Below, piece after piece: positions 8,540 through 24,169 of a stretch of DNA of 64,000 nt. How positions within the stretch are numbered: the stretch's first letter is position 1; the number at the start of each line of letters is the position of its first letter. Under the pieces are notes generated by a model that saw only the letters and a list, made by a program, of their open reading frames with translations, was not told the DNA's origin and did not search any database. Source of the stretch: Arthrobacter sp. B6 (GTDB lineage Bacteria; Actinomycetota; Actinomycetes; Actinomycetales; Micrococcaceae); NCBI RefSeq assembly GCF_001663775.1, contig NZ_KV467168.1, forward strand, positions 2,330,870 through 2,394,869, read 5' to 3'. Made by a program: the position numbers and the translations under genes.

Positions 8540-9421
8540 TCAGTCCTCCGCCTTGCGTTGGGACGATCGGAAAATCGCGAGGGTGAAGACAAGGCACAGG
8601 AGCGTCAGGACCAGGGCGATGGTGCTGCCATAGCCATACTCCGCATACTCGAATGCTGTCCGGTACATGTAGAGGGTCAGCGGCGCTGTCGAAGTACCCG
8701 GACCGCCGTTATTGAGTGCAAGCAGGCTGTCGAAGACCTTCAGGGTCGCATTGAGGCTGAAGATGATTGAGGACAGAAGAATGGGCAGCGAGAGCGGCAC
8801 CACGATATGCCGCACCAGCTTGAGGCCATTCGCTCCGTCCAGCTTCGCCGACTCGAGGATCTCGTCGGGGATGTCAAGAAGCCCTGCGTAGAGCAGGATC
8901 GCGTAAAACCCCATGGAACCCCACAGTGTCATGGCCAATGCGGTGGCCATGGTGCCGGACGTGGTGGCAAGGAACTCGACGCTTTCCCCGCCAAAGAGGT
9001 TGATGAGGTCGTTGACAGGTCCCTGGTTGTCTCCCACGGCGACAAAGCTGCGGAAAAGCAGGGCGACGGCGACCGTTGGCAGGATCGCCGGGAAAAAGAC
9101 GATCGTGCGGAGCAGTGATGAACCTTTGCGCAGGACGAAGACGTAGAGGAGGGCCAGCAGGTACCCCAGCAGGATCTGGCCTGCAGTGGCGACGATCGCA
9201 AAAAAGACGCTGACCCCCAGGGACTGCAGGGCCGCATCGTCCGTGAAGAACTTGGTGAAGTTATCGACTCCAACGAACTCGAAGCCGCGAAGGGTGTTCC
9301 CCTCAAAGAAGGAGAGGCCGAGGGACCAGGCCACTGGGCCTATCTTCAGCAGGGTATACAGCAGGAGGGCAGGAGCCAAGAGGATGATAATCGTCTTGCG
9401 GTCTCCGAACACCGAGTTCAT
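8540..9421 (-). CDS. CUT1 sugar ABC transporter permease (MalF-type)
   Basis: A 293-residue permease with about six membrane spans. The first is near residues 10-30 (TIIILLAPALLLYTLL) and the EAA loop reads ESAKLDGANGLKLVRHIVVP. It forms the import channel with the MalG-type partner, whose ATG follows its TGA by a single base, indicating coupled translation. A strong stem-loop (9446-9476) separates it from the upstream solute-binding-protein gene, consistent with lower expression of the permeases than of the binding protein. Confidence 0.92.
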   Translation of the reverse strand: MNSVFGDRKTIIILLAPALLLYTLLKIGPVAWSLGLSFFEGNTLRGFEFVGVDNFTKFFTDDAALQSLGVSVFFAIVATAGQILLGYLLALLYVFVLRKGSSLLRTIVFFPAILPTVAVALLFRSFVAVGDNQGPVNDLINLFGGESVEFLATTSGTMATALAMTLWGSMGFYAILLYAGLLDIPDEILESAKLDGANGLKLVRHIVVPLSLPILLSSIIFSLNATLKVFDSLLALNNGGPGTSTAPLTLYMYRTAFEYAEYGYGSTIALVLTLLCLVFTLAIFRSSQRKAED

Positions 9422-9484: not shown

Positions 9485-10819
9485 TCACCGAGCAGCGTCA
9501 ACGCTCTTCTGAAGGGCGCCCATGTAGTCCTCGGCAGACATCTGGCCGGTGGTGAGCAGGGAGACGTTGGTTGAGGCCAGCGAATTGCTCTTCGGGTCCA
9601 GGAGGGCTTCGAACCAGAGCACGGGGTCCTTGAGTTCGGTGATCTTTTCCTGGATCTGGGAGGTCATGACCGGGAGTTCCTTGACGTCCTCGTTGACCTT
9701 GAACCCCGAGATGGTCCCGGAATCCTTCAGCGCCTGCGCACCGTAGTTTTCGGAGATGCACTTCAGCCAGTCGCCGACCTTGGGCCCAAACTGCTTGGGT
9801 GACATGGCCATCACTGCACCCGCGTTGGCCGCGTACTGGTCAATGCTGCCGGAACCGCCCTCCACTGCCGGGAAGGGCATAAAGCCGATGTTGGTGTCAC
9901 GAATAGTGTTCCGTTTGGGGTCGTTGATGGAGCTCAGCAACCAGCTGCCGTCGTACGTCATGGCTGCCTTGCCGGTGAGGAAGAGGTTCGCGGACGTGTC
10001 GGCGTCGCGGGTCGAGAAGCCCTCGCCCAGGGAGCCGGAGGAAGCAAGATCGGCCAGGGCCTTTGCGCCTGCCACATACTTGGGATCGGTCAGCTTGGCC
10101 TTGCCGTCCCTGACGTCCTTCATCGCATCCGGCCCTACATTGCGGAAGATGTACATGCCCATCAGCCGGGTGAGTGGCCAGCCGGCGGCACCGGCCTGCG
10201 TCATCGGCATGATGCCGGCCTGGGAGAGCTTGGCGTTGGCTTCCTTCAGGTCATCCCAGGTCTTGGGCTCCTCGATGCCGTTGTCAGCGAAGATCTGCTT
10301 GTTGTACCAGATTCCCTCGACGTTGTACTGGTAAGGGAGGGAAACCATGCCGCCGTAGACGTTCTCCACTGTGGCGGCAGCCGCAGGCAGAAGCTGATCT
10401 GCTGCGCCCAGCTTCTCCAGGGCCTCCTTGTAATCCAGCACAAGGTCGCCCTTGCCGAGGTCACCATCCGGGCGGACCATCGCGGTGCCCGCGATGAAAT
10501 GTGCGGGCAGCGCGCCCTGGCCAGCCAGCAGGGTTACCTTCTGTACGACGTCGGCCTGTGCCACTTTCTGGTGCTCGATGGGGAGTGCCGCGTTCTCAGC
10601 CGAGCAGGCACCCTTGGCCAGTGCATCGAGGGTGGCCGGGAGGGCCTTGTTCTCGTTCGCTGTCAATATGGTGAAACTGCTGGGATCAGTGCCGGTGCCC
10701 GCGCCCCCAGCCGTGCTGCCGGCGTCCTGTGGTGCTCCGCCACCACAGGCGGACAGCGGAGTAAGTGCGAGCGCGACGGCCGTTGCCACCATGACTCGAC
10801 GACTGCGGATAGCTTTCAT
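9485..10819 (-). CDS. Sugar ABC transporter solute-binding lipoprotein
   Basis: A 444-residue extracellular binding protein of the type that feeds CUT1 importers. A signal peptide (MKAIRSRRVMVATAVALA) ends at the lipobox LSAC, lipidated near residue 24, followed by a Gly/Ser/Thr-rich linker. The body carries family features such as GIWYNKQIFADNGIEEPKTW and WPLTRLMGMY. ATG 10819 is preceded by AGGAGG at ideal spacing. It heads the operon binding protein-permease-permease-racemase family and is divergent from GH127. The ligand is unknown; the context suggests a plant-derived oligosaccharide, glycoside or branched-sugar derivative. Confidence 0.9.
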   Translation of the reverse strand: MKAIRSRRVMVATAVALALTPLSACGGGAPQDAGSTAGGAGTGTDPSSFTILTANENKALPATLDALAKGACSAENAALPIEHQKVAQADVVQKVTLLAGQGALPAHFIAGTAMVRPDGDLGKGDLVLDYKEALEKLGAADQLLPAAAATVENVYGGMVSLPYQYNVEGIWYNKQIFADNGIEEPKTWDDLKEANAKLSQAGIMPMTQAGAAGWPLTRLMGMYIFRNVGPDAMKDVRDGKAKLTDPKYVAGAKALADLASSGSLGEGFSTRDADTSANLFLTGKAAMTYDGSWLLSSINDPKRNTIRDTNIGFMPFPAVEGGSGSIDQYAANAGAVMAMSPKQFGPKVGDWLKCISENYGAQALKDSGTISGFKVNEDVKELPVMTSQIQEKITELKDPVLWFEALLDPKSNSLASTNVSLLTTGQMSAEDYMGALQKSVDAAR

Positions 10820-10877
10820 GACGTCCTCCTTGACGGCTGCCATTCGGTGACAGCGAACCTCTGATCGATGCGTTTTC

Positions 10878-10901
10878 AATCAGGAGTGAGAGATTATTCA
10901 G
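10878..10901 (+). promoter_or_regulatory. Putative SorC operator, importer/GH127 divergent region, copy 1
   Basis: The segment begins AATCAGGAGTG and ends ATTATTCAG and matches the motif beside the SorC gene (5835-5858, minus) at 17 of 24 positions. It lies 59 bp upstream of the binding-protein start. A related segment lies 73 bp further on, about seven helical turns. The rest of the 10820-11026 gap holds the perfect palindrome TGAATATTCA at 10942-10951. Confidence 0.5.
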
Positions 10902-11026: not shown

Positions 11027-13015
11027 ATGAAAAGCAGTACAGCGAAGCGGCAGCATGCGCCCCTGACCGCGCTCGACGCAGCTAATGTCGTTTGGACCGG
11101 CGGCTTCTGGGGCGATGTGCTTGAGCGCACGCGGACTGTGACAGTACCGGGAATGTGGCGCTCACTCAGCGACCCGGCGGTAAGCCCGGGCTGGCAGAAT
11201 TTCCTCATCGCTGCCGGCAACGCCGAGGGCCAGCACGAAGGCCCGCCGTTCCTCGACGGCGACCTCTACAAGTGGCTCGAGGCGGCCATCAGCCTCCTGG
11301 AGACCTCGCCGGACCCGGCCCTCGAAGCAAGCATCAATGAGATCGCGTCGAAGATCGCGTCCGTTCAACGCGGCGACGGATATCTCCACACGCCAACGCG
11401 CATCGCCGAACGCAACGACGAGCAGGTCCAGGCCCTCGCCGACCGCTTCAACTTCGAGACGTACAACCTCGGCCACCTCATTACTGCCGGCGTCCGCCAC
11501 CACCGGGTGACAGGCGGAACGGTCCTGCTGGACGCCGCCGAGCGCGCCGCGGGATTCCTTGAGAACCTGTCCATTAACCACACGGACCAGCTCGCACGCA
11601 GTGCGATCTGCCCTTCGCACTACATGGCTGTCATCGACCTCTACCGCGCCACGGGCAATGAACGCTACCTTCGGCTGGCGGAGTCCTTCGTCGCTGTCCG
11701 GGACGGCTTCGAGGGCGGCGACGACAACCAGGACCGTGTTCCGGTACGCGAGCAGAAAGCAGTGGCCGGCCACGCAGTCCGCGCCAACTATTTGTATGCC
11801 GGGCTGGCGGACCTCGTTGCTGAGACGGGTGACCCGGAGCTTACTGAAGTGCTCGAACGCCTCTGGAGGGACGTCGTCGACACCAAGCTCTACATCACCG
11901 GCGGCTGCGGGGCGCTGTACGACGGTGCATCACCGGACGGCTACCCGTGGCAGGGCGAAATCAGCCGCGTGCACCAGGCCTACGGACGCCCCTTCCAGCT
12001 GCCGAACACCACTGCGCACAACGAGTCCTGCGCGAACATCGGCATGATCTTTTGGAGTGAGCGGATGCTGGCGCTCACCGGCACCGCCGCATATGCCGAC
12101 GTGATCGAGCGCATCGCCTACAACAGCCTGCTGGCGAGCATCAGCCTCGACGGCTCCCGCTACTTCTACACCAATCCGCTGCGGCAGGTCCGCGAGCTGC
12201 CGTTCCCCCTACGGATGCCCGGCGAAACCGCCCTTCGGCCGGTCCCGGAACCGCCCGCGTCCGACGCGCGCCTTCGGGCGGAGTACCTGAGCTGCTTTTG
12301 CTGCCCGCCGAATATCGCCCGGACCCTGGCGCAGTTCCACGAACGAACCATGTCCACTTCCGCGGAGGGGCTGTGGGTTCACCTCTACGGCAACGCTGAC
12401 GTCCAGGTGGACCTTGATGGCCGCGGCATCGGACTTCGGGAAGTCTCCGAGCAGCCGTGGGGAGAGCACATCGACTTCACCGTCACTTCCGTCACGGACG
12501 GCGGCATCCCGCTGAAACTGCGGATCCCCGGCTGGAGCGAAGGTGCGTCCATCACGGTCAACGGGGACCCGGCGCCAGCCAGTCCGCCCGGAACGTACGC
12601 AACGGTCGACCGCCAGTGGCAGGAAGGCGACCGGATCTCAGTGGCATTGCCGATGCCCGTCAAAATGGTCCGGGGGCATCGCCTCGCAGAGGAAATCTCC
12701 AACCAGGTTGCTGTGACCCGCGGTCCGGTTGTGTACTGCCTGGAAAGCCAGGACCTGCCGGAAGGAATCCGGCTGGAGCAGGTCGCGCTGCGCCGCGGTA
12801 CCAACTTCACTCCGGTCGAGACTGACATCGACGGCCGCCGGATCGTGGCCCTTGAGTGCGAAGCGGTGGTCCTGCCACCCGCTGAAAGCCATGGACTCTA
12901 TTCTGAAGTGGAGGACGCCGAACTGGTGACCGCGCCCGTGCGGCTGATTCCTTACTTCACCTGGGGCAACCGCGGGGAATCCGAAATGTCCGTCTGGCTC
13001 CCGCTGGCCTGGTGA
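11027..13015 (+). CDS. Glycoside hydrolase family 127 (beta-L-arabinofuranosidase type)
   Basis: A 662-residue GH127 protein without a signal peptide, so it acts inside the cell on imported material. The zinc/thiolate active site known from HypBA1 is visible: NESC (Glu333 and Cys335) and FCCPPN (Cys425-Cys426), corresponding to the Glu, Cys and paired Cys ligands with the nucleophilic Cys. The (alpha/alpha)6 barrel comes first, followed by beta-sandwich domains. The start ATG 11027 has GAGGA upstream. The stop overlaps the start of the RuBisCO-like gene. Known members remove beta-L-arabinofuranose, and other members act on unusual plant furanoses, so beta-apiosyl substrates are worth considering. 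Confidence 0.9.
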   Translation: MKSSTAKRQHAPLTALDAANVVWTGGFWGDVLERTRTVTVPGMWRSLSDPAVSPGWQNFLIAAGNAEGQHEGPPFLDGDLYKWLEAAISLLETSPDPALEASINEIASKIASVQRGDGYLHTPTRIAERNDEQVQALADRFNFETYNLGHLITAGVRHHRVTGGTVLLDAAERAAGFLENLSINHTDQLARSAICPSHYMAVIDLYRATGNERYLRLAESFVAVRDGFEGGDDNQDRVPVREQKAVAGHAVRANYLYAGLADLVAETGDPELTEVLERLWRDVVDTKLYITGGCGALYDGASPDGYPWQGEISRVHQAYGRPFQLPNTTAHNESCANIGMIFWSERMLALTGTAAYADVIERIAYNSLLASISLDGSRYFYTNPLRQVRELPFPLRMPGETALRPVPEPPASDARLRAEYLSCFCCPPNIARTLAQFHERTMSTSAEGLWVHLYGNADVQVDLDGRGIGLREVSEQPWGEHIDFTVTSVTDGGIPLKLRIPGWSEGASITVNGDPAPASPPGTYATVDRQWQEGDRISVALPMPVKMVRGHRLAEEISNQVAVTRGPVVYCLESQDLPEGIRLEQVALRRGTNFTPVETDIDGRRIVALECEAVVLPPAESHGLYSEVEDAELVTAPVRLIPYFTWGNRGESEMSVWLPLAW

Positions 13016-14337
13016 CGGAAATGACCTCGACAGTTACCCCAGGCCTTGCTGCAGATCCCTCCGCCCAAGACCGGGAAGAAGCCACGCCGCAGCACGTTGT
13101 TGCCACCTATCACATCGAGACGTCCCTCGATCTCCAGCATGCGGCCGAGGTGCTGGCCGGTGAGCAATCCACCGGCACATTCATCAGGGTGGCGCGGGAG
13201 TCCGACGACCTGCGGGCCAGGTTCGCCGCCCAGGTTGTGGACCTTAAGGAGCTCCCGCTGAATGGTTCCTCCCCGCTGCCCGGGGCCGTCGGGGATCCGG
13301 CCAAACGCCGTCGTGCCCGGGTGCGGCTCCGGTTCCCGCTGTCCAACTTCGGCCCGTCCCTGCCAAACCTGCAGGCCGCCGTCGCCGGCAACCTGTTCGA
13401 GATCAAGGAACTCGCCGCGATCAAGCTGGTGGACCTTGACCTTCCCAAGGCCTTCGCGGATCGCTATCCCGGACCGGCCTTTGGTGTTGAGGGAACGCGC
13501 CGGCTGATGTCCCGCCCCTCCGGCGCCATGCTGGGGACGATCATTAAGCCCAGCATCGGCCTTAGCCCCGGAGAGCTTGCCGAGGTGGTCGCAGAACTGG
13601 CCAGTGCCGGCGTCGACTTCATGAAGGATGACGAACTGCAGGGCAACGGACCCTCGGCGCCCCTGGCCGAGCGGGTGCGGGCAGTCATGCCCGTACTGCA
13701 GCGCCACGCGGACCGCACAGGCGTGATGCCGATGTATGCCTTCAACATCACCGATGACATCGGCCGCCTTGAAGCCAACCACGACCTTGTGGTCGGGGCC
13801 GGCGGCACCTGCGTGATGGCCTGCATCAATATGGTGGGCCTGGCGGGTGTGGAATTCCTGCGCCGGCACGCTTCTGTACCCATCCACGGGCACCGGGCAA
13901 TGTTTGGGGCCATCAGCCGTTCTGACCAGCTGGGGTTCTCGTTCCGTGCCTGGCAGAAGCTGGCCCGGCTCTCGGGCGTGGACCATCTCCATACCAACGG
14001 CATCAGCAATAAGTTCTACGAGAGCGACGCCGAAGTGCTCGACTCCATCGCGGCTGTGCGGGAACCCCTTCTGGGGCAGACCCCGACGGTGCCTGTGCTA
14101 TCGTCCGGACAGTGGGCGGGCCTCGCCCACGCGACCTATGCGGCCACCGGCACGGACGACCTCCTGGTTCTCGCGGGCGGCGGAATCCACGGCCACCCAG
14201 ACGGGCCGGCCGCGGGGGTGAAGAGTATGCGTGCCGCGTGGGATTCCGCCGGGCGCGGTGAAGGGAAAGAGGCAGCCCTCGCCGCTTCAGGCGAATTCCG
14301 CCGGGCCGTCGAGACGTTCGGAGCGCCGCGTGACTGA
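13012..14337 (+). CDS. RuBisCO large-subunit-like protein (probable 3-oxo-isoapionate-4-phosphate-type enzyme)
   Basis: A 441-residue RuBisCO-like protein. The catalytic framework is kept: GTIIKPSIGLSP (Lys179, like RuBisCO Lys175), DFMKDDELQGN (Lys205, Asp207 and Glu208, matching the carbamylated Lys and the metal-binding Asp/Glu), PIHGHRAMFG (His292/294), SSGQW and LAGGGIHGHPDG (phosphate-binding end). KPS replaces the KPK of true RuBisCO, so CO2 fixation is not expected. GTG 13012 overlaps the GH127 stop; ATG 13021 is an alternative start. The adjacent DUF1537 kinase matches the OiaK plus OiaX/OiaT pair of D-apiose catabolism, in which these proteins decarboxylate or hydrolyse 3-oxo-isoapionate 4-phosphate. 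Which of the two reactions occurs cannot be told. Confidence 0.85.
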   Translation: MTEMTSTVTPGLAADPSAQDREEATPQHVVATYHIETSLDLQHAAEVLAGEQSTGTFIRVARESDDLRARFAAQVVDLKELPLNGSSPLPGAVGDPAKRRRARVRLRFPLSNFGPSLPNLQAAVAGNLFEIKELAAIKLVDLDLPKAFADRYPGPAFGVEGTRRLMSRPSGAMLGTIIKPSIGLSPGELAEVVAELASAGVDFMKDDELQGNGPSAPLAERVRAVMPVLQRHADRTGVMPMYAFNITDDIGRLEANHDLVVGAGGTCVMACINMVGLAGVEFLRRHASVPIHGHRAMFGAISRSDQLGFSFRAWQKLARLSGVDHLHTNGISNKFYESDAEVLDSIAAVREPLLGQTPTVPVLSSGQWAGLAHATYAATGTDDLLVLAGGGIHGHPDGPAAGVKSMRAAWDSAGRGEGKEAALAASGEFRRAVETFGAPRD

Positions 14338-15631
14338 CCTGCGACTCGCCTTTTACGGTGACGATTTCACCGGCAGCGTGGATGTCCTCCTGCAACTCAG
14401 GCGGGCCGGATGGACCAGCCGTCTTTTCCTGGGGCTCCCCGACCCCACTGAACTGCAGGCATCCGCCCGGGAAATGGACGCCGTCGGCGTGGCCGGCGTT
14501 GCACGGTCCCTGCCGACAGGCCGGATCGAGTCCGAAGTACGGCCCGTGCTTGAGGCGCTCAGCGCGCTCCGGCCGCAGATTGTGCAATACAAGGCCTGCT
14601 CAACGGCTGACTCGTCGCCAACCGTCGGAAGCCTCGGCCGGGTCATCGAGATCGCCAGGGAGGTATTCGGCCCGGCCACGGTGCCCGCCCTCTTCGCCCA
14701 GCCCGACTTCGGCCGCTACACCGCCTTCGGCCACCACTTCGCCGCGGAGGAGAGCCAGGTGTACCGCCTCGACCGCCAACCGACGATGTCCCGGCATCCG
14801 ATCACGCCAATGCGCGAATCCGACCTCGCGCGGCACCTCTCGCTCCAGACCAGCCTTCCCATCGGCAGCCTGCACCTCACCGAATATTCGGATGGGCCGG
14901 ACATCGCCCGCAAGCTGGCACTGCGGACCGACGCCGCAACAGTCCTCGACGCACTGACCGACGAGCACATTGAACTTGTCTCCCACGCCGTAGTGGCCAA
15001 CTTCCCATCGAACGCACCGCAGTTCGTGATCGGCTCCGGCGGGTTCAGCCGTGGCCTCGCGGCGGCCTTCTCCGGCGGAGGCACCTCCCAGCCCGGCACC
15101 GTCGATGAGTTGAGCGACGACGGGCCTGTCCTTGCCGTCTCGGGCTCCCAGTCGCCACAGACATCGCGGCAGACCGAGGACGCCCGCCGCCAAGGATGGA
15201 CTGTCCTCGCACTGGCCGCACACGACGACGGCCCGCTGGTGGACCGCGTTATCGCTGAGGTCGCGGCCGGCCGGAGCGTAGTGGTGACTACCGGTGACGC
15301 CGCCGAAGCGAGCGACGGCGGGAGCTTGGTGGAGACGCTTTCCGCCCGCCTGTCGGCGGTCATCGAAGCGGCCCTCCGCGAGGGCAGCAACAGCCGGGTG
15401 ATCGTTTGCGGCGGGGACACCTCCAGCCACGTCCTCAGGCAGCTCGGCGCCCGTTCCCTGTCAATCGCCGCAAACCCGGTGGGGAACGTGGTCCTGTGCA
15501 GGGTTGCGTCCCCCAATGCCTGGCTCGACGGCGTCGAAATGCTGCTGAAAGGCGGCCAGGTGGGTCCGGTGGACCTCTTTGAGTTGATCCGCACGCTCCA
15601 GGCGAGGCAACGCGTCGCACCCCTCGCCTGA
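14330..15631 (+). CDS. Four-carbon acid sugar kinase family protein (DUF1537; OiaK-like)
   Basis: A 433-residue DUF1537 kinase. The N-terminal substrate domain starts with FYGDDFTGSVD (the DDxTG motif of the family, about residues 7-16) and includes QYKACSTADSSPTVGS, a K-C-STxDS-type substrate loop. The C-terminal nucleotide domain carries LAVSGSQSPQTSRQ and VCGGDTSSHVL. Members phosphorylate erythronate, threonate, tetronates or 3-oxo-isoapionate. GTG 14330 overlaps the end of the RuBisCO-like gene by 8 bp, so translation is coupled and the two enzymes probably act in sequence: phosphorylation, then carbon-carbon cleavage. That favours 3-oxo-isoapionate as substrate. Confidence 0.85.
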   Translation: MTDLRLAFYGDDFTGSVDVLLQLRRAGWTSRLFLGLPDPTELQASAREMDAVGVAGVARSLPTGRIESEVRPVLEALSALRPQIVQYKACSTADSSPTVGSLGRVIEIAREVFGPATVPALFAQPDFGRYTAFGHHFAAEESQVYRLDRQPTMSRHPITPMRESDLARHLSLQTSLPIGSLHLTEYSDGPDIARKLALRTDAATVLDALTDEHIELVSHAVVANFPSNAPQFVIGSGGFSRGLAAAFSGGGTSQPGTVDELSDDGPVLAVSGSQSPQTSRQTEDARRQGWTVLALAAHDDGPLVDRVIAEVAAGRSVVVTTGDAAEASDGGSLVETLSARLSAVIEAALREGSNSRVIVCGGDTSSHVLRQLGARSLSIAANPVGNVVLCRVASPNAWLDGVEMLLKGGQVGPVDLFELIRTLQARQRVAPLA

Positions 15632-15664: not shown

Positions 15665-18625
15665 CTAGGCCTGGAAGCGCACACTCCACGTCGTCGCTTC
15701 GCGGGGTATCCGGTACTGTCCGGGCAGGGGTGGACCGCACGCCGCCGACCCCAGCCCGAGCTGTGCACGGTCCACGTTTAGCCACACCCGGCCGGAATCC
15801 ACGAGGTCGTGGGGATGCCGGGCCCGCTCCAAGGTTTCACTGGTCCACCGCCGGGCCGTGAACTCGAAATGCGGATCACCCTCAACCCGCAGGGTGGGCA
15901 GCCCGGCTCCTGAGACCTCCAGCCAGCGGGTTTCCACGTGGTTGCCGTTTTCCTGGGGCACCGGATACCCAACCTGCAGGGCGTCAATGTCCGAGGCATG
16001 GATCCCGACGACGGCGGCCTCCCGCGAGTCGGTGTACGACTCCCCCGGTCCCCGTCCGAACCACCGCACCTCCCGGCAGGCACCCGGAAGGCCTAGCCGG
16101 AGTCCCAGCCGCGGCAGGACGATGTCCCGGTGCTGATACGGCGTGTCCGCCCAGGGTCCGGTGAAATCCACCGACACGTCCAGCCGGAGTCCCTCGCTGT
16201 CGGCGGTCCAGTCGAACACGTACTCGATCGCATGCGGGTGTGTCGCTGCTGCGCAGCGGCCGGCCACGCGGAAGCGTTCGCCGTCTGCTTCCACACGGTC
16301 TGTCCGGTGCTGCATCCGGTCCAGTCCGACGGCGGTCCACACGGCCGCGAGGTTGTTGTTGCCGCCCTGCCCGCGGTCATTCTCGGTGGGGGCGCGGTAC
16401 ACGTCGAGCAGCGGGCCGTCGAGCTCCAGGCGTCCGAGGCGGGTCAGCCTCCCGGACACCGCGTCGAACACCGCTTTCCCGAGCCGCAGCTCTCCGCCGG
16501 CCAACACGGGCTGCCCGGTCGACGTCGGGCGAGACGCCTGGCCCCTGGAACGCACCTGCTCTCGGGAACGCGGCTGGGGGCGGAGAGCCAACAGGCCCTG
16601 GGACCACGCAACAACGTGCCCGGCCGGAGCCCACGCCGTGTTGCCCTTCAGCGCCGCCTCGACCGTGAGCCACCACTCGCCGGATTCATCGCCCGGGGCC
16701 ACCGGACACTCCACGGCGACGACCTCGCCGGCGGCAACCCCCGGGACGTCCAGGACGCCCGCGGCCCGCTGGACACCATCCAGTTCAAGGCGCCACGTAA
16801 AAGTGAGGTGGTCGAGCCCGATTACGTCGTGGTCGTTGCGGATCCCGATCCTCTCACCCACGGAAATCTCAACAGGCTGGACCACCTTCTTCAGCTCGGC
16901 CAGGCCGGGCGACGGCGTCCGGTCCGAAAAAACGAGTCCGTCCAGGCAGTAGCGGCCACCGTTCGGGCGGTAGTCAACATCCGAACCGTGCATGATGAAC
17001 TCGTGCCCAGCGGAATCCCGGTGCCGGAAGCCGTGGTCGATCCACTCCCACACAAAGCCGCCGCAGAACCTGTCGTGTGCCTTCAGGATGCGGTGGTAGT
17101 CCGCCAGTGAGCCCGGGCCGTTGCCCATTGCATGGGCGTACTCGCACAGCAGGAACGGCAGGGAGCGGCGGCGCGCGTCGTCGTCGTCGTTAATTCCTGC
17201 AGGCCGGGGATCCTCACGCCGGCCTATCTGCCCCAGCAGTTCCAGCGATGGGTACATCAGGGATGCGAAGTCCGAGTTGCGGTAGCTGGGGTCCCGCTCG
17301 TAGTGGAGGGGACGCGACGGATCACGGTCCCGGATCCAGGCCCCGACGGCGTCGAAGTTCCCGCCAACCCAGCTCTCGTTTGCGAGGGACCAGGCCACGA
17401 CGCTGGGGCTGTTCTTGTCCCGCTCCACCATACGGCGGGTACGGTCGAGCATGGCGGCCAGCCAGCGCGGGTCCGCAGGCGGGTTGCCCTCCCACCCGGC
17501 GTAGATAAAGCCGTGGGTTTCAAGGTCGGATTCCTCCACCACCCAGAGGCCATATTCGTCGCAAAGCCGGATGAAATCGGGGTGCGGCGGATAGTGGCTG
17601 GTGCGCACCGCGTTGATGTTGTGCTGTTTCATCATCACGATGTCCCGGACCATTGTCTCCCGGTCGAGGGTCCTTCCCGTGTCGGGGTGGTGTTCGTGGC
17701 GGTTCACACCGCGGAAGAACACAGGCCTGCCGTTGGCGCGGAGCACGCCGTCGGCGATCTCAACCGTGCGGAAACCTATCCTCAGCTCAACCGTCTCGCC
17801 TGCCGACGTGAGCGAGCCCCGGTAGAGCCGGGGTGATTCGGCACTCCATGGCTGAACGGGAACGGTGGCGGTTTCGCCCGCGGCCATGCTGATTCCAAGC
17901 TCCGGGACCTCCACGCGGGCCGTGGTTGAAGCGTCGACGCGGAGGGTGCCCTGCCCGGTACGGTGGTCGAAGCCGGCGTGGACGAAGAAGTCGTCGATCG
18001 AGCCTGCAGGCCGTTCGAGGAGCTCGACATCGCGGAAGATGCCGGGCAGCCACCACATATCCTGGTCCTCGAGGTAGGTTCCCGACGACCAGCGGTGCAC
18101 TCGCACGGCGAGCACGTTCTCACCCGGAAGCACCGGGGCATCGAATTCGAAGGGCAACCGGCTTCCGGTCGAAAAGCCCAGCTCCTGCCCGTTCAGCCAG
18201 GCCTTCGCGCAGGAGTCCACCCCCTGGAACCGAAGCACGGCCGGGCCCCAGTCCTCGGGCACGTCAAAGACCAGCCGGTAGTCGCCGGTGGGGTTTTCGG
18301 TGGGAACCCGGGGCGGATCCAGCGGCATGGGCAGCGCAGTGTTGGTGTACAGCGGGCCCTCGTCGGTCCCGAGCAGCGACCGCGCGGGTCCGCCGGCCAG
18401 CGGGGTCACGGGCTCAAGGACCCAGTGGGACGGGACCCGGATGGTGTCCCAGCCCGTATCGTCAAAACCTGCCTTGGTGAATTCCGCGCCGGCGCCCGCC
18501 GCGGTGGGCGAAAGCAGGAACTGCCAGTTTCCATTGAGGCTGAGCCGGCGTGCGTCGCTGATTGCATCCGCACGGGGCTCGCGGCGGCCGGCTCCGGGGG
18601 CATGGTCTTCCCAATATTGGCGCAT
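15665..18625 (-). CDS. Glycoside hydrolase family 2, LacZ-type beta-galactosidase
   Basis: A 986-residue cytoplasmic GH2 enzyme with the full LacZ domain order: sugar-binding domain (about 30-210, with SLNGNWQFLLSP and DMWWLPGIFRDV), immunoglobulin-like domain, TIM barrel (about 300-600, with RGVNRHEHHPDTGRT), and the C-terminal small chain (RAPTENDRGQGGNN, WFGRGPGESYTDS). The acid/base Glu417 is in SLANES and the nucleophile Glu495 in CEYAHAMGNG. No signal peptide is seen. The start is 11 bp downstream of the stop of the DUF5060 gene, and both probably share a promoter controlled by the LacI operators at 20228-20294. The true glycan may be a plant galactoside rather than lactose. Confidence 0.93.
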   Translation of the reverse strand: MRQYWEDHAPGAGRREPRADAISDARRLSLNGNWQFLLSPTAAGAGAEFTKAGFDDTGWDTIRVPSHWVLEPVTPLAGGPARSLLGTDEGPLYTNTALPMPLDPPRVPTENPTGDYRLVFDVPEDWGPAVLRFQGVDSCAKAWLNGQELGFSTGSRLPFEFDAPVLPGENVLAVRVHRWSSGTYLEDQDMWWLPGIFRDVELLERPAGSIDDFFVHAGFDHRTGQGTLRVDASTTARVEVPELGISMAAGETATVPVQPWSAESPRLYRGSLTSAGETVELRIGFRTVEIADGVLRANGRPVFFRGVNRHEHHPDTGRTLDRETMVRDIVMMKQHNINAVRTSHYPPHPDFIRLCDEYGLWVVEESDLETHGFIYAGWEGNPPADPRWLAAMLDRTRRMVERDKNSPSVVAWSLANESWVGGNFDAVGAWIRDRDPSRPLHYERDPSYRNSDFASLMYPSLELLGQIGRREDPRPAGINDDDDARRRSLPFLLCEYAHAMGNGPGSLADYHRILKAHDRFCGGFVWEWIDHGFRHRDSAGHEFIMHGSDVDYRPNGGRYCLDGLVFSDRTPSPGLAELKKVVQPVEISVGERIGIRNDHDVIGLDHLTFTWRLELDGVQRAAGVLDVPGVAAGEVVAVECPVAPGDESGEWWLTVEAALKGNTAWAPAGHVVAWSQGLLALRPQPRSREQVRSRGQASRPTSTGQPVLAGGELRLGKAVFDAVSGRLTRLGRLELDGPLLDVYRAPTENDRGQGGNNNLAAVWTAVGLDRMQHRTDRVEADGERFRVAGRCAAATHPHAIEYVFDWTADSEGLRLDVSVDFTGPWADTPYQHRDIVLPRLGLRLGLPGACREVRWFGRGPGESYTDSREAAVVGIHASDIDALQVGYPVPQENGNHVETRWLEVSGAGLPTLRVEGDPHFEFTARRWTSETLERARHPHDLVDSGRVWLNVDRAQLGLGSAACGPPLPGQYRIPREATTWSVRFQA

Positions 18626-18636
18626 CTGCGTCCTGT

Positions 18637-20172
18637 TCAGCCTGCGTCGGTCTCGGCGGGTTGCGGCAGCCGGCGGATGCGCAACGTGAGGGCTTCCCCT
18701 TCAGGCAGCTGGACCGGGCCGGCGCCGCCGGCGAAGGCGTCATTGCGCCGGACGTCAGTCAGCTCGAAGGACCGGCCCACCGGCTTGATTGTCATGTTCC
18801 ACGTGTCGATCACGTCCACCTCGAAGCGGTCGCCAACCTCCAGCGGGATTCCCATGCCCGCAGTGGGCAGCCGGAACGTCCATGAGGCGGGGGCGGACCG
18901 GCCGAGGTACTGGAAGTACACCTGCCGTGGAATACCGGCCACGAACGAGGCGTCCCACCAGTTGTCGATCGGGTCCAGGCCGTTGCCGACCACGTCGTCC
19001 AGCAACCTCCGAAGGAAACCAAGCCGTTCCGGACTTTCCCCCTTCAAAAGCCCGCCCGCAACGATGTGGAGGGTCCCGTCGTCGAGCACAAAGCTCTCGC
19101 CGTGCGAGGCGTAGCATCCTGACACGGTGGCGATCCAGAACTGGTGCACCAGTTCCCGGCCCGTGAGGCGTCCCCACCGCTCGGGCACGTCGCCTTCGTA
19201 CTTGATCTCGTCCAGGACCACCGGTTTACGGTAGGCGTCGCGGAACAGCGAGGCGCGGCCGAAGTCCTCGGTGGCCTGTCCTAGCTGGAGGGAGGCGTGC
19301 GTGACCCACTGCTGGTTGTAGTCGTAGAGACGCACCCAGTTATGGATGGACCGCAGGTGGTCGTGCGGATCGGCGGCGGCGAGCAATTCGCCGGCCGCAT
19401 CCCACCGCGCCGTGGAGCGGTCCAGGATGTCGAACTCGTTGCAGAGGGACCACCACACGTTGGAGTAGGCGGAGAGCCGGGCAACGAGGTAGCGCAGGTA
19501 TACGGCATCCTCGGTTTCGGACAGTCCGTCGAGGCCGAAGCGGCCATTGTCATAGGCGTTGTAGATGAGCACATCAGCCTGGATCCCACGGGATTGCAGA
19601 AGGACGACGGCGGCATCGAGCCGCCGGAAGAACGTCACCACCGGGCGGGTCACGTCGTAGCGCCCATCGGCCCCGCGTTCAAAGGGCAGCAGCTCGGGAA
19701 AATGCTCCACATAGCCGCCCGCCTGAGGGAAGACCATAAAGCGCAGCTTGTTGAAACCCGCCTCAGTCAGTGAGTCCACCGTCGCCGCGAATCTTTCTCC
19801 GGGCTGGTGCAGCCAGTTGTACACCGTTGCCCCGACCGGCCGGAACGGAGTGCCGTCTGCGTGGGCGAAATGGAAAGTGCCGGCCACCCGGACCGGCCCG
19901 TGCTCCGCCGGCTCGGCCCCGGCAACGTTGACCTCGCCGGTCACTCCCGCCAGCCCGGCGGTCTCCGAGGTTGTGGTCCACCTCCAGCGGCCTTCATCTT
20001 CGGGCGCGAAACGCGCCAGGTAACGGTCATCGCCGTCCCAGAATCCCGGGACCCTCTTGACGTCTCCGGACTCGTGCTCAAAGACTGCCCAGAACGGCAC
20101 ACGATCCGCGGGAAGGGGTTCGTCCGGCCCGGTCAGTACTACCTCGAGCACCGCGTAGCAGGGGTGCGTCAT
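18637..20172 (-). CDS. DUF5060 / apiosidase-like (DUF4038) / DUF5605 glycosidase
   Basis: A 511-residue protein without a signal peptide. Residues about 1-95 match the DUF5060 beta-domain (VPFWAVFEHESGDVKRV, FAPEDEGRWRW) and about 100-420 a TIM-barrel domain of the DUF4038/apiosidase-like type (RPVGATVYNW, NKLRFMVFPQ). The C-terminus resembles DUF5605. Candidate catalytic residues are Glu246 in SLCNEFDI and Glu322 in VLDEIKYEG, as expected for a retaining clan-A hydrolase. The founding GH140 member of the DUF4038 family is an apiosidase acting on rhamnogalacturonan II. Here the gene is cotranscribed with GH2, divergent from GH78, and 3 kb from a probable apiose-pathway kinase pair. Substrate assignment is inference. 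Confidence 0.78.
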   Translation of the reverse strand: MTHPCYAVLEVVLTGPDEPLPADRVPFWAVFEHESGDVKRVPGFWDGDDRYLARFAPEDEGRWRWTTTSETAGLAGVTGEVNVAGAEPAEHGPVRVAGTFHFAHADGTPFRPVGATVYNWLHQPGERFAATVDSLTEAGFNKLRFMVFPQAGGYVEHFPELLPFERGADGRYDVTRPVVTFFRRLDAAVVLLQSRGIQADVLIYNAYDNGRFGLDGLSETEDAVYLRYLVARLSAYSNVWWSLCNEFDILDRSTARWDAAGELLAAADPHDHLRSIHNWVRLYDYNQQWVTHASLQLGQATEDFGRASLFRDAYRKPVVLDEIKYEGDVPERWGRLTGRELVHQFWIATVSGCYASHGESFVLDDGTLHIVAGGLLKGESPERLGFLRRLLDDVVGNGLDPIDNWWDASFVAGIPRQVYFQYLGRSAPASWTFRLPTAGMGIPLEVGDRFEVDVIDTWNMTIKPVGRSFELTDVRRNDAFAGGAGPVQLPEGEALTLRIRRLPQPAETDAG

Positions 20173-20227: not shown

Positions 20228-20241
20228 TTGAACCGTATCAA
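20228..20241. promoter_or_regulatory. LacI-type operator 1 of the glycoside cluster
   Basis: TTGAACCGTATCAA is a 14-bp imperfect palindrome with TTGA/TCAA ends and a central CG, the form bound by LacI-family proteins. It lies in the divergent gap between the DUF5060 (start 20172, minus) and GH78 (start 20393, plus) genes. It resembles the sites at 20281 and 24156. Confidence 0.6.
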
Positions 20242-20280: not shown

Positions 20281-20294
20281 TTGAAACGTGTCAA
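20281..20294. promoter_or_regulatory. LacI-type operator 2 of the glycoside cluster
   Basis: TTGAAACGTGTCAA, with a central CG, agrees at 13 of 14 positions with the reverse complement of the site upstream of the LacI gene (24156-24169). This links that regulator to the divergent DUF5060/GH2 and GH78 transcripts. Confidence 0.7.
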
Positions 20295-20392: not shown

Positions 20393-23026
20393 ATGAGCAT
20401 CACCGTTGGCGCACCAACATTCGAACACCACCGCCAGGCCCTCGGCACCGGCGTCGCCGCGCCGCGGCTCTCCTGGAAAACCCGGGCGCCCGCCGGGTGG
20501 ACGCAAGCCTCCTACGAAGTACGGGTTGAGCGAGGGCACACCGTTGAAACCCCGCCGCCCGTTGACTCCACGGACTCTGTCCTGCAGCCCTGGCCTTCCG
20601 CTCCGCTCAGCTCCCGCGAGCAGGCCCTTGTCCGGGTGCGCGTCACCGGCGTCGATGGCACACGTTCAGGGTGGAGCATACCGGGGACCGTCGAGGCAGG
20701 GTTGCTGGACCCCAGCGACTGGAAGGCCATGGCGGTCGGCGCCGGCTGGGAGGAGGACCCGGCGTCGGACGAACGACGTCCGCCACTGCTGCGGCGCGAG
20801 TTCGCTGTCCGCGGTGGCGTCGCCTCTGCGCGCCTCTATGTCACAGCCCACGGCCTCTATGAGGTGGAGATCAACGGACAGCGGGTGGGCGACGACGCCA
20901 TGTCGCCGGGCTGGACCACCTACTACCATCGACTCCGGTACTACACCTACGACGTCACGGACCACTTGGCAAGCGGTGTGAACGTCATTGGATCCTGGCT
21001 CGGGGACGGCTGGTACCGCGGGCGGCTGGGCTGGTATGGCGGTTTCCAGAATCTCTACGGCACCGACCTCTCGCTGCTCGCCCAACTCGAGATCCGGTAC
21101 CGCGACGGCTCGGTGGAGGTCATCGCCACGGATGGCTCCTGGCGGGCGGCCCCGGGTCCCATCGTCCGCAGCGGCAACTACGACGGCGAGCTGTACGACG
21201 CGCGGCTTGAGCTCGACGGCTGGTCCCGGCCGGGATTCGACGACGCCGGCTGGCACCGGGTTGTCGCTGCCCACCGCGACCCTGCCACTCTGGTGGCTCC
21301 GGAGGGACCTCCGGTCAGGTGCACGCAGGAGGTGGCTCCGGTGACAGTACTGGCCACCCCGAGCGGCAGGAAGGTCCTCGATTTCGGACAAAACCTTGTG
21401 GGCCGGCTCCGCATCAGGGTTTCCGGCGAGGCGGGAGATTCGGTTCTCATCCGCACCTCAGAGGTCCTGCAGGACGGAGAAATCTATACGCGGCCGCTGC
21501 GCAGCGCGAAGTCGACCGACGAGTACGTGCTGGCCGGACGGCCGGCCGAGGAGTGGGAACCGCGGTTCACTTTCCACGGATTCAGGTATGCGGAGGTCAG
21601 CGGTTGGCCGGGAGACCTCGAGGCTGCCGTTGCCAACGGCGACGTCGTCGCCCGCGTTTATCACACCGACCTCGAGCGCACGGGCTGGTTCGAGACCTCC
21701 AACCCCAGCGTCAACCGGCTCCACGAGAACGTCGTCTGGAGCATGCGCGGAAACTTCCTCGACATTCCCACCGACTGCCCGCAGCGGGATGAGCGCGTCG
21801 GCTGGACCGGAGACATCCAGGTGTTCGCGCCCACCGCCTCGTACCTCTACGACGTCTCCGGCATGCTCTCCAGCTGGCTCAAGGACGTGGCGGCGGAGCA
21901 GCTTCCCGACGGAACGGTGCCCTGGTACGTCCCTGTCATTCCCGCGCACAAAATGTGGACCCCCATCCGCCCGGGTGCGGCGTGGGGTGACGTCGCAACG
22001 TTCACGCCATGGACCTTGTTCGAGCGCTTCGGCGATGCTGCGATCCTGGAAGCGCAGTACGACAGTGCCAAGAGCTGGGTGGAACTGGTGGAGCGTCTTG
22101 CCGGACCGGACCGGCTTTGGAATGAAGGATTCCAGCTGGGCGACTGGCTGGACCCGTCAGCACCGCCGCATGACCCGGCCGACGCCCGCACTGACCGGTA
22201 CCTCGTCGCAACGGCATACTTCGCCCGCTCCGCAGACCGCATGGCCCGGATGGCAGCCGTCCTGGGCCGCTCCGAGGACGCGGAGCGGTTCGCCAGGCTG
22301 GCCACCGACGTCCGCCGCGCCTTCGCGGCCGCCTATGTTCGCCCTGGCGGACGCATGTCCAGCGATGCCCAGACCGCCTATTCGCTTGCCATCGGGTTCG
22401 AACTGGTGCCGGAGGCCGACATGGCCGCGGCCGGACGCCGCCTTGCCGAACTTGTGGAAGAAGCCGGGCACCGCATCGCCACGGGCTTCGTCGGCACACC
22501 CCTGGTTTCCGACGCGCTCACTGCGACTGGACATGTGGACTCGGCCTACAGCCTCCTGCTGGAAGAAGAAGCGCCGTCCTGGCTGTATGCGGTGATGCAG
22601 GGCGGCACCACGATCTGGGAACGCTGGGACAGCATGTTGCCCGACGGCACGGTAAATCCCGGCAAGATGACCTCCTTCAACCACTATGCCCTGGGAGCCG
22701 TGGCCGACTGGCTGCACCGTGTTGTGGCAGGCCTGGCGCCGGGAGCTCCGGGCTACCGGCACATCGTATTCAGGCCCCAGCCGGGCGGCGGGCTCACCCA
22801 CGCTTCCGCTGGGCACGAGACGCCGTACGGCCGGGCGGCCATCGCCTGGAGCATCGACGGTGGGACCTTGCGCGTGGACGTCACCGTGCCCACAGGTGCG
22901 ACGGCGACCGTGCAACTCCCGGACGGCGATGCCGTGCAGGTCGGAAGCGGCGCCCATCGCTTCGAAGGTGCGGCGGCCGCCGTCGACCCTCTCCCCCCGC
23001 TGATCCCCGAGGCCTCTCCCAGGTAA
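20393..23026 (+). CDS. Glycoside hydrolase family 78 alpha-L-rhamnosidase
   Basis: An 877-residue GH78 enzyme without a signal peptide, hence intracellular. The N-terminal beta-sandwich and Bac_rhamnosid_N region carries LYVTAHGLYEVEINGQRVGD and GDGWYRGRLGWYGG. The (alpha/alpha)6 barrel follows, with IPTDCPQRDERVGWTGDIQ (catalytic acid candidate Glu467) and TIWERWDSM (catalytic base candidate Glu743), then the C-terminal rhamnosidase domain. It hydrolyses terminal alpha-L-rhamnose from oligosaccharides or flavonoid/terpenoid glycosides. It is divergent from DUF5060/GH2 behind shared LacI-type operators, so the three enzymes probably strip one rhamnose- and galactose-containing plant glycoside. 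Confidence 0.92.
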   Translation: MSITVGAPTFEHHRQALGTGVAAPRLSWKTRAPAGWTQASYEVRVERGHTVETPPPVDSTDSVLQPWPSAPLSSREQALVRVRVTGVDGTRSGWSIPGTVEAGLLDPSDWKAMAVGAGWEEDPASDERRPPLLRREFAVRGGVASARLYVTAHGLYEVEINGQRVGDDAMSPGWTTYYHRLRYYTYDVTDHLASGVNVIGSWLGDGWYRGRLGWYGGFQNLYGTDLSLLAQLEIRYRDGSVEVIATDGSWRAAPGPIVRSGNYDGELYDARLELDGWSRPGFDDAGWHRVVAAHRDPATLVAPEGPPVRCTQEVAPVTVLATPSGRKVLDFGQNLVGRLRIRVSGEAGDSVLIRTSEVLQDGEIYTRPLRSAKSTDEYVLAGRPAEEWEPRFTFHGFRYAEVSGWPGDLEAAVANGDVVARVYHTDLERTGWFETSNPSVNRLHENVVWSMRGNFLDIPTDCPQRDERVGWTGDIQVFAPTASYLYDVSGMLSSWLKDVAAEQLPDGTVPWYVPVIPAHKMWTPIRPGAAWGDVATFTPWTLFERFGDAAILEAQYDSAKSWVELVERLAGPDRLWNEGFQLGDWLDPSAPPHDPADARTDRYLVATAYFARSADRMARMAAVLGRSEDAERFARLATDVRRAFAAAYVRPGGRMSSDAQTAYSLAIGFELVPEADMAAAGRRLAELVEEAGHRIATGFVGTPLVSDALTATGHVDSAYSLLLEEEAPSWLYAVMQGGTTIWERWDSMLPDGTVNPGKMTSFNHYALGAVADWLHRVVAGLAPGAPGYRHIVFRPQPGGGLTHASAGHETPYGRAAIAWSIDGGTLRVDVTVPTGATATVQLPDGDAVQVGSGAHRFEGAAAAVDPLPPLIPEASPR

Positions 23027-23068: not shown

Positions 23069-24079
23069 TCAGGCGACGGTGGACGTCCGGACCATCAGTT
23101 TCGGCTGGAAGACGATCTGCTTGGCCGATTCCGCGTCCTTGGCGACGGCCGCCTGCAGGAGGTCCACTGCCGCGACGCCGAACTCCTCATGCGGCGCCCT
23201 GACCGACGTCAGTGGGATCACGGAGGCTTCCGCGAACTCGATGTCGTCGTATCCCACCAGGAGGATGTCGGCGGGGACACGCAGGCCGTTGTCCACCACA
23301 AGACCGTGCATCAGCCCCAGAGCCAGGAGGTCATTCACCGCGAAAACCGCCTCGGGCCGGCGCTCCGGGGATCGTTTGGCGATTTCGGCTGCCACTTCAC
23401 GGCCCATGGCAAGGGTCCGGGTGCCCACGTTGATCACCTCGAGGGTGGCGTCCGGGCATTCGCGGACAGCGCGGCTGGCGCCCTCGATCCGGTCGGCGAC
23501 CTGCGGGACTCCCAAAGGTCCGCCCACGAATGCTATGCGCCGGGCCGACTGCTCGATGAGGTGCCGCGCTGCCAGATAGCCGCCCAATTCGTCGTCCACC
23601 GACACGGACGGCTGCTCGCTTGCCAGGGCCCGCTGCCCCACGAGGACGCTCGGCGTGCCCAGCCTGCGGATGTGGGCGAGCCGGTCCTCGATGGGACCAT
23701 GCGATGCCACCAGCAGGCCACGGACGCGGTGGGCCTGGAACATCTCCAAATAGGCGTCTTCCCGTTCCCGGCTCCTGTTGGAGTTGGCCAGGAAGACCGA
23801 AAGCCCGTCGGCGGCGGCACGCTGCTCGACGCCCTCGGCAATGGTGGCAAAGAAGGGGTTGCTGATATCTGGCGCCATATACGCGATCGTGGCGCTGCTG
23901 CCACGACGAAGCTGCGATGCGGCGTCGTTGCGGACAAAGCCCAGCTCGTCGATGGCCCGTTGGATACGCTCACGCTTCTCCAGTGACACCTTGTCCGGAT
24001 GGTTGATGAAGTGCGAAACGGTGCCCTGCGCAACCTGCGCGAGCGCAGCGACTTCCCGGATCCCTACCCTTGCGGCCAT
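23069..24079 (-). CDS. LacI family transcriptional regulator of the GH2/DUF5060/GH78 cluster
   Basis: A 336-residue repressor. The N-terminal helix-turn-helix reads GIREVAALAQVAQGTVSHFI, with the hinge NDAASQLRRGSSATIAYM near residues 50-67. The periplasmic-binding-protein-like effector domain follows, with PDISNPFFATIAEG, ERRPEAVFAVNDLLALG and ILLVGYDDIEFA. The start is ATG 24079. A 14-bp operator 77 bp upstream (24156-24169) is almost identical, in reverse complement, to operator 2 of the divergent glycosidase promoter, indicating autoregulation and control of the cluster. The inducer is probably a sugar released from the substrate, such as L-rhamnose; the sequence does not settle this. Confidence 0.92.
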   Translation of the reverse strand: MAARVGIREVAALAQVAQGTVSHFINHPDKVSLEKRERIQRAIDELGFVRNDAASQLRRGSSATIAYMAPDISNPFFATIAEGVEQRAAADGLSVFLANSNRSREREDAYLEMFQAHRVRGLLVASHGPIEDRLAHIRRLGTPSVLVGQRALASEQPSVSVDDELGGYLAARHLIEQSARRIAFVGGPLGVPQVADRIEGASRAVRECPDATLEVINVGTRTLAMGREVAAEIAKRSPERRPEAVFAVNDLLALGLMHGLVVDNGLRVPADILLVGYDDIEFAEASVIPLTSVRAPHEEFGVAAVDLLQAAVAKDAESAKQIVFQPKLMVRTSTVA

Positions 24080-24155: not shown

Positions 24156-24169
24156 TTGACACGTTTCAT
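24156..24169. promoter_or_regulatory. LacI-type operator 3 (autoregulatory)
   Basis: TTGACACGTTTCAT lies 77 bp upstream of the LacI start at 24079. Its reverse complement agrees with the operator at 20281-20294 at 13 of 14 positions. The rest of the 24080-24276 gap shows no other gene. Confidence 0.65.

Follow-up and report, generated by a model that had tools for sequence, protein, structure and literature searches.

A DUF5060–PF13204–DUF5605 protein of Arthrobacter sp. B6 as a predicted intracellular apiosidase, and the RuBisCO-like protein module beside it

The 64,000-nucleotide stretch of the Arthrobacter sp. B6 genome analyzed here (contig NZ_KV467168.1, positions 2,330,870 to 2,394,869; referred to as the window) encodes a 511-residue DUF4038-type protein that is probably a retaining clan GH-A glycosidase, predicted to act inside the cell, where it would release beta-linked D-apiose or a side chain that ends in apiose from imported oligosaccharides of rhamnogalacturonan II (RG-II), its best candidate substrate. 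RG-II has a reputation as the most complex polysaccharide of plants, and most of what is known about its breakdown comes from a single gut Bacteroides. If true, this reading would describe intracellular RG-II breakdown in Actinobacteria that live in soil or with plants, and it would assign a function to the widespread DUF5060/PF13204/DUF5605 family, whose nearest solved structure is still a “putative glycoside hydrolase”; a search of one open library for DUF5060 or DUF5605 returned only unrelated work, judged by titles and the beginnings of abstracts. The domains, the fold class, the invariant pair of glutamates, the gene layout, the LacI-type sites, and the co-occurrence with genes of the apiose-route and aceric acid hydrolase types were computed directly, while the substrate, linkage, order of cuts, retaining mechanism, localization, and import are what we infer. 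A RuBisCO-like protein (RLP) and a four-carbon acid sugar kinase encoded nearby, previously labeled an apiose locus, are tentatively assigned below to aceric acid instead.

Domain architecture and apiose-route neighbors

The reading frame described in the original prediction is real. Pfam recognizes three domains in the single chain, each above its cutoff, namely DUF5060 at residues 4–69 (62.8 bits, cutoff 27.2), PF13204, the “Apiosidase-like, catalytic domain”, at residues 101–353 (60.8 bits, cutoff 26.5), and DUF5605 at residues 406–499 (47.4 bits, cutoff 25). That prediction, made from the letters alone, also placed Glu246 and Glu322 at clan-A-like positions, and both survived the family alignment proposed as its test: in the window protein and 44 relatives (n = 45; 36–87% identity; L039 excluded, as its match held a stop) N245, E246, D321, and E322 are all invariant, among 44 invariant columns, the two glutamates lying in the contexts ...WSLCNEF... 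and ...VVLDEIKYEG.... The barrel fold, which matches GH5, GH140, and other glycosidases, together with the invariant E246 after N245 and the invariant E322, places the protein in clan GH-A. By eye, no signal peptide is seen at the N-terminus (MTHPCYAVLEVVLTG...), as would be expected of an intracellular enzyme.

Scanning species genomes yielded 223 confirmed relatives, and the 80 best loci were retained. Flanking genes were called by a codon model (which missed the gene in L046) and clustered, with one representative of each recurrent family named via Pfam or NCBIfam. Orthologues, at 55% identity or more, gave 33 flanks of 10 kb on each side (L043, with a broken frame and a 274-residue open reading frame, was left out), and the whole-genome orthologue set comprised 31 of these loci and the window genome (n = 32; L016 and L021, on short contigs, were left out). 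Six gene families, which we assign to the apionate route in line with the published D-apiose pathways, were followed: ApnL-like, PF16896 (ApnO), PF01261 (OiaC-like), Dak (LerK-like), TIM (LerI-like), and RpiB (DerI-like). At least two of the six stand in 19 of the 33 orthologue flanks and at least one in 21, and the count of flanks with apiose-route genes rises to 22 with one extra locus that carries a transketolase route. These assignments rest on family and synteny, as the two actinobacterial ApnL-like proteins that were tested reach 209.5 and 197.9 bits on the curated model, the cutoff being 750. At the level of whole genomes, 31 of the 32 with an orthologue carry a single PF16896 copy, and none of 14 unmatched control genomes has one. 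In the window genome itself, a second locus (C1:213.9–223 kb) holds ApnL-like, Dak, RpiB, TIM, PF01261, and PF16896 genes.

The sole orthologue genome lacking PF16896, G316 (Tessaracoccus, locus L036), has the transketolase route: close to its DUF4038-type gene lie an FGGY kinase gene, transketolase halves, and a gene resembling sugar isomerases; a gene set of this kind, aptA, aptB, apsI, and aplK, is described in a passage of PMC13001218. Among the 46 distant flanks (36–46% identity), the transketolase route appears in 8, at least two apionate genes in 1, and a lone ApnL-like gene in 2. Names for the transketolase halves and the FGGY kinase come from a single set, that of L089. Well supported branches of a 62-row tree force at least 7 changes of the transketolase label, which is scattered about like a shuffled one; the link was, as far as this tree indicates, therefore not inherited once. 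On plasmid pRL12 of Rhizobium johnstonii, a relative of 41% identity stands beside ATP-binding cassette (ABC) importer genes, together with DhaK, DhaL, and a Gfo/Idh/MocA oxidoreductase; 5 kb away is a protein that reaches 1060.9 on the curated D-apionate lactonase model, well over the cutoff of 750. A D-apionate lactonase lies within about 7 kb in at least 21 of 30 listed plasmid rows, these rows being close kin and 60 of 227 lactonase records having been compared; by annotation, none was seen within 9 kb of the Aureimonas and Martelella relatives. Taken as synteny, this makes an apiosidase role likely, and the apiosidase-like function in an RG-II context proposed earlier gains from the apiose-route genes in 22 of 33 flanks, the Rhizobium lactonase, the glutamate pair, the restriction of LacI-type sites to this locus and lacI, and the GH127 genes near relatives that are described next.

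Partner enzymes, fold, and competing substrates

In RG-II, aceric acid is attached to the rhamnose of the rhamnose–apiose chain and, to our knowledge, it is known only from this polysaccharide. The window GH127 reaches 778.7 bits over the full length of the aceric acid hydrolase model NF049879, below the cutoff of 950, and may, by synteny, work like an aceric acid hydrolase. Its best match in the PDB is 5mqo (638.3 bits, vs 370.4 for 4qjy and 258.5 for 3wkw), all three being deposited as beta-L-arabinofuranosidases. Near distant relatives of the DUF4038-type protein, GH127 genes score 1033.3 (L055, adjacent and above the cutoff), 933.8 (L046, adjacent), and 833.1 (L044, 7 kb away) on the same model; such genes nearby suggest RG-II. 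The window GH2 has a precedent in the GH2 enzyme BT_0993, which acts on the Gal-beta-1,2-aceric acid of RG-II (PMC11739564). The GH2, GH127, GH78, and PF13204 enzymes of the window could thus match the run galactose, aceric acid, rhamnose, apiose.

In the mechanism that we propose, an ABC importer would bring in RG-II fragments, from which GH2 would take off galactose, the aceric acid hydrolase-type GH127 would take off aceric acid, and GH78 would take off the alpha-L-rhamnose on apiose, following which the DUF4038-type enzyme would cut apiose-beta-1,2-galacturonic acid, and the free apiose would enter the apionate route, the genes for which lie in another part of the genome. Alternatively, GH78 could act after the DUF4038-type enzyme, in the way that BT1001 follows BT1012.

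According to a passage of PMC11747546, flavonoids, coumarins, and lignans can also contain apiose, and the enzyme could instead be an apiosidase that serves secondary metabolites of plants, namely apiosyl flavonoids, phenolic glycosides, and saponins, with GH78 stripping rhamnose from these glycosides and GH2 stripping galactose or arabinose. An ABC importer and enzymes without visible signal peptides would suit such small glycosides, and GH78 is found in 26 of the 33 orthologue flanks. This is nevertheless an unlikely reading, as the locus itself holds an aceric-type GH127, as do 28 of 32 orthologue genomes and the neighborhoods of distant relatives (933.8 and 1033.3 bits), and aceric acid is not known from any source but RG-II.

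The AlphaFold model of the protein has a mean pLDDT of 93. The only solved relative with a significant sequence score is 4n0r, the putative glycoside hydrolase BVU_0362 of the gut bacterium Bacteroides vulgatus, which is the same protein over its full length (TM 0.93, Z 54.3, 33% identity) and for which we know of no activity. Next in the fold ranking come ManDH5 (Z 31.6), the metagenome GH140 apiosidase 8t9w (28.8), and the GH140 enzyme BT1012 (BT_1012, 5msy; 27.5). The barrel and the C-terminal sheet domain of the two GH140 enzymes superpose on the window protein, and the partner enzymes expected for them are the same; they differ in that the structural identity is 13–14% and that the window protein has an extra N-terminal DUF5060 and a DUF5605 and shows no signal peptide by eye. 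BT1012, which presumably belongs to PF13204, reportedly uses an Asp as acid/base, the corresponding position of the window protein being the Glu of its NE motif. Despite the PF13204 match, phmmer and profile searches of the PDB, with E up to 1, found no GH140 chain, and the protein is at most a candidate member of GH140.

Several observations weigh against the apiosidase reading. The profile of the subfamily, as stated above, returned no GH140 entry from the PDB with E up to 1, and ManDH5, deposited as a GH5 beta-mannanase, outranks GH140 in the structure search (Foldseek, VIA; TMq 0.70 vs 0.61, Z 31.6 vs 28.8). Of the 33 orthologue flanks, 11 contain neither apiose route, as do 35 of the 46 distant ones with respect to any apiose-route gene, and distant L076 and L090 show only the lone ApnL-like gene; the 31 of 32 for PF16896 stands beside unmatched controls, 196 of 500 shuffles scatter the transketolase label as little as observed, and the one FGGY kinase tested, that of L089, passes the NCBIfam cutoff for glycerol kinase (617.5 bits vs 590.35). 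The window holds no recognized apionate-route gene besides the RLP/kinase pair, and in the set elsewhere in the genome no D-apiose dehydrogenase was identified. GH2 and GH78 are families with many substrates, and a Pfam scan of 20 window proteins showed no fucosidase for the outer parts of chains A and B. Finally, three paralogues are present in the same genome, and the copies may differ in specificity.

Part of this evidence would suit a beta-mannosidase, mannanase, or other clan GH-A glycosidase that merely shares neighbors with apiose genes. Among folds that have a named activity, the nearest is ManDH5 of Dictyoglomus (9gpe, 9gpg), a protein of 17% identity that was deposited as mannan-active; it can be aligned across all three domains (model 1..502), whereas the GH140 chains align only from residue 87–93 on, and the distant flanks devoid of apiose-route genes agree with it. 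As modeled, the fold fits an apiosidase and a mannanase alike, the mannanase slightly better, and the structure search was dropped as a discriminator between the two. GH140 does align, with Z of 27.5–28.8, and two unrelated apiose routes stand beside relatives in several phyla; the mannanase explanation is, in our judgment, quite improbable, and that of an RG-II apiosidase is preferred. We know of no link of ManDH5 to apiose genes.

Among the paralogues is a fusion of 1612 residues (L099:572–5410, minus strand, C1 about 305.6–310.4 kb) in which GH78 domains precede DUF5060-Apiosidase-DUF5605; in the near relative L077, the same parts are separate neighboring genes. This fusion counts in favor of the RG-II reading. 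Two more DUF5060 paralogues lie at about 350–356 kb, in one cluster with GH43 and GH78 (L101:5786–15160, C1 about 350.8–360.2 kb). It may be that each DUF5060 paralogue of the genome handles an apiosyl linkage of its own.

The RuBisCO-like protein module and its proposed role with aceric acid

The RLP/kinase pair (13012–15631, plus strand) ends 3.0 kb from the DUF4038-type gene, and the original prediction took it for a putative apiose locus, a label that is probably wrong: an apionate-route set is present at C1:213.9–223 kb, and the pair tracks GH127 and a gene for an Asp/Glu racemase-fold protein (c9), not PF16896. Of the 32 orthologue genomes, 28 encode the RLP (at 72% identity or more), and the same 28 have both the aceric-type GH127 (55% or more, adjacent to the RLP by coordinates in each) and c9 (57% or more); the other four (L018, L032, L040, L045) lack all three yet keep PF16896. 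Conversely, G316 has the RLP and no PF16896. Among 396 Micrococcales genomes, for which only the best few candidates per genome were scored, the RLP was found in 15 and the aceric-type GH127 in 14, all of them within those 15. In the corresponding 15 stretches, fetched or from the window, GH127 lies alongside in 13 and c9 in 12, the exceptions being G337 with GH127 on another contig, G597 with a stretch that ends before c9, and G009 with neither. Three of these 15 genomes, the window’s, G416, and G423, also belong to the 32-genome set (coordinates identical with G318 and G305 for the latter two). A table of coordinate distances with Fisher values was set aside, as at least G298, G300, and G314 break its same-contig assumption and kinship is ignored.

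In the distant genomes, an RLP match was obtained in 12 of 36 (10 of the 46 loci were left out of this search), one of them weak (G703, 30%) and dropped from the comparison of stretches. The 12 RLP stretches from the 11 remaining genomes hold the kinase in 12 and c9 in 10, and a GH127 of 40% or more stands beside this trio in one, from Pedobacter (L159), where it passes the aceric acid hydrolase cutoff of 950 with 1208.9 and lies next to a GH106 gene; a Croceibacterium plasmid has the order GH127–RLP–kinase, but its GH127 scores only 87.4. Elsewhere, RLP/kinase pairs are found with apiose-type neighbors or with a VOC gene, which in one case is joined by a phosphogluconate-dehydrogenase-type gene. 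Because it recurs in several settings (GH127, VOC, apiose-type neighbors), the pair looks like a reusable tool, the partner of which may tell the substrate.

The opposing view is that the pair is an apiose route after all, of the OiaK/OiaX or transcarboxylase type, fed by the distant PF16896 enzyme and running in parallel with the OiaC branch. The apiose-type OiaX/OiaK loci of Shinella, Phyllobacterium, Microvirga, and Rhodobacteraceae SC52 have an RLP followed by a four-carbon acid sugar kinase, as in the window, together with phosphogluconate-dehydrogenase-C-terminal or NAD(P)-binding, Gfo/Idh/MocA, and long hypothetical genes, the last of which, tested in Shinella, proved ApnL-like (312.8 bits against a cutoff of 750); the window pair, unlike these, has GH127 and the racemase-fold gene as partners. 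The best models for the window RLP and kinase are OiaX (NF042437, 408.2 bits) and OiaK (NF042436, 254 bits), both below cutoffs of 700, and the RLPs of the four apiose-type loci also stay below the OiaX cutoff and score barely better (410.6–471.6; one such kinase reaches 472.5), so that the OiaX score was dropped as a separator. The idea that the trio RLPs form one clade was ruled out by an RLP tree (topology only), which puts them in several places, those of Sphingomonas grouping with three apiose-type RLPs. Moreover, 27 of 28 RLP genomes also have PF16896, and published RLPs decarboxylate 3-oxo-isoapionate-4-phosphate, as stated in a passage of PMC6302742. On the other side, the RLP is accompanied by GH127 and the racemase-fold gene in 28 of 28 genomes and absent jointly with them in 4 of 4, in which PF16896 is kept; G316 has an RLP without PF16896, and all 14 GH127 genomes of the 396 have the RLP. 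The only PF16896 gene found in the window genome lies on the same contig 2.1 Mb from the pair, none being beside it, and because the set of lactonase-like, PF16896, PF01261, Dak, TIM, and RpiB genes is already present elsewhere (C1:213.9–223 kb), apiose may not need the window RLP. An apiose role of the pair thus appears rather doubtful, and we rejected the pair as evidence for the apiose action of the DUF4038-type enzyme.

Our own proposal, put forward tentatively and with slightly less than even confidence, is that the RLP, the four-carbon acid sugar kinase, and c9 constitute the first aceric acid pathway. Aceric acid is 3-C-carboxy-5-deoxy-L-xylose, and the C1-phosphorylated 2-ketose derived from it differs from 3-oxo-isoapionate 4-phosphate only by CH3-CHOH- in place of HOCH2-. 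According to PMC6302742, in the passage already referred to, published RLPs decarboxylate, or transcarboxylate and hydrolyze, the latter compound; an RLP of the D-hamamelose pathway is cited in the reference list of PMC10176493 and is a further warning that RLPs serve several branched sugars. The racemase-fold protein c9 has one invariant cysteine, Cys77, with Gln185 where a racemase homologue has its second cysteine (Q185, A186, and S187 are invariant in 30 sequences), which suits a one-base isomerase as far as sequence goes. GH127 would free aceric acid, c9 would isomerize the aldose to the 2-ketose, and the kinase would phosphorylate C1, presenting the RLP with CH3-CHOH-C(OH)(COO-)-CO-CH2-OPO3. 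The RLP would then yield either CO2 and a 5-deoxypentulose 1-phosphate, which would subsequently give dihydroxyacetone phosphate and acetaldehyde, or lactate and 3-phosphoglycerate. The DUF4038-type enzyme would act on the same RG-II chain, one or two steps further on. We know of no described fate of free aceric acid; in one open library, no paper on its catabolism appeared by title among the matches listed, and the combination of “aceric acid” and “rubisco” gave only plant papers, by titles and the beginnings of abstracts. If the module does handle aceric acid, it would represent a new reaction of the RuBisCO superfamily on a second branched sugar acid, testable from four genes.

Other RLP loci were observed in passing. 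In L132:8989–11602 (G009), an RLP of 48% identity stands with a kinase and an alcohol dehydrogenase, and GH127 and the racemase-fold gene were not found in that stretch; this RLP forms a separate branch with those of L160 and L161. In L167 and L168, RLP–kinase pairs lie in tripartite ATP-independent periplasmic (TRAP) transporter operons with a VOC-family gene. On a plasmid of Streptomyces sp. NBC_00184 (L165:592–2987), DUF5060 and DUF5605 are annotated as two adjacent proteins, surrounded by GH28, RLP–kinase, GH78, GH2, and alpha-L-fucosidase genes. The plasmid is linear, this part of it has the appearance of an RG-II island, and the RLP is adjoined by an alcohol dehydrogenase, a racemase not being annotated.

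Gene layout, regulation, and further loci

The features of the window are collected in Table 1. The layout given in the original prediction was confirmed: GH2 follows the DUF4038-type gene on the same strand after 11 bp, GH78 diverges from it across 220 bp, and the RLP/kinase pair lies at the distance given above. Because of the 11-bp gap, we predict that the DUF4038-type gene and GH2 are cotranscribed.

Table 1. Features of the 64-kb window (positions from its first letter)
Feature	Coordinates	Strand	Basis or remark
DUF5060-PF13204(Apiosidase)-DUF5605 protein, predicted intracellular beta-D-apiosidase	18637..20172	-	511 aa, ATG start; Pfam, alignment, fold
Glu246 codon, NE motif, predicted acid/base	19435..19437	-	Position from reading frame; invariant in 45 sequences
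Glu322 codon, DE motif, predicted nucleophile	19207..19209	-	Position from reading frame; invariant in 45 sequences
GH2, best-scoring model of LacZ type though under its cutoff; may act on Gal-beta-1,2-aceric acid or an arabinopyranoside	15665..18625	-	Putative substrate from BT_0993
GH78 alpha-L-rhamnosidase, divergent	20393..23026	+	Family scan; GH78 in 26/33 orthologue flanks
LacI-family regulator	23069..24079	-	Pfam
LacI-type operator, exact match	20281..20294	.	Palindrome search
LacI-type operator, 2 mismatches	20228..20241	.	Palindrome search
LacI-type operator upstream of lacI, 1 mismatch	24156..24169	.	Palindrome search
RuBisCO-like protein (RLP)	13012..14337	+	Family scans
Four-carbon acid sugar kinase (SBD_N/NBD_C)	14231..15631	+	Reading frame begins at 14231; by eye, the true start is probably about 14330
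GH127, aceric acid hydrolase-like	11027..13015	+	662 aa from probable ATG, reading frame opens at 10868; NF049879 778.7 bits, cutoff 950
Asp/Glu racemase-fold protein c9, predicted isomerase of RLP module	6947..7618	-	
SorC-type regulator (PF04198)	5938..6957	+	Family scan
ABC solute-binding protein	9485..10879	-	Real start probably near 10819 by eye
ABC permease	8540..9421	-	Clusters with window 38347-39342, itself PF00528
ABC permease	7627..8592	-	By eye from translation and position
GlcD/GlcF-like FAD and Fe-S 2-hydroxyacid dehydrogenase fusion	2904..5822	-	In 3/33 orthologue flanks
NAD-dependent epimerase/dehydrogenase, candidate sugar dehydrogenase by position only	1991..2965	-	

A LacI-type palindrome, TTGAAACGTGTCAA, is present twice in the gap between the DUF4038-type and GH78 genes and once upstream of lacI, and these three sites are the only ones in the window at up to 2 mismatches; counted on both strands they give 5 matches, vs 0.47 expected, a number reached in 0 of 100 shuffles. 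From this placement, the local LacI is probably the controller of GH78, of the DUF4038-type–GH2 operon, and of lacI itself. The SorC-type regulator gene sits among the ABC importer and racemase-fold genes, and inverted repeats were found neither at 5800–5960 nor at 10780–11060. The earlier claim of LacI-type operators unlike the SorC motif holds only in so far as the LacI-type sites are confined to this locus and lacI, with none near the SorC-side genes.

The GlcD/GlcF-like fusion (FAD oxidase plus Fe-S/CCG domains) could oxidize lactate or glycolate from an RLP reaction. In the orthologues, the gene directly downstream of the DUF4038-type gene is GH42 in L022, L024, L026–L029, L034, and others and GH2 in L013, L016, L025, and L036, a non-homologous swap of beta-galactosidase-type enzymes. 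A separate locus of the window (33717–40701) encodes a protein with an alpha-L-arabinofuranosidase C-terminal domain, a GH43 enzyme, an ABC permease, and a solute-binding protein.

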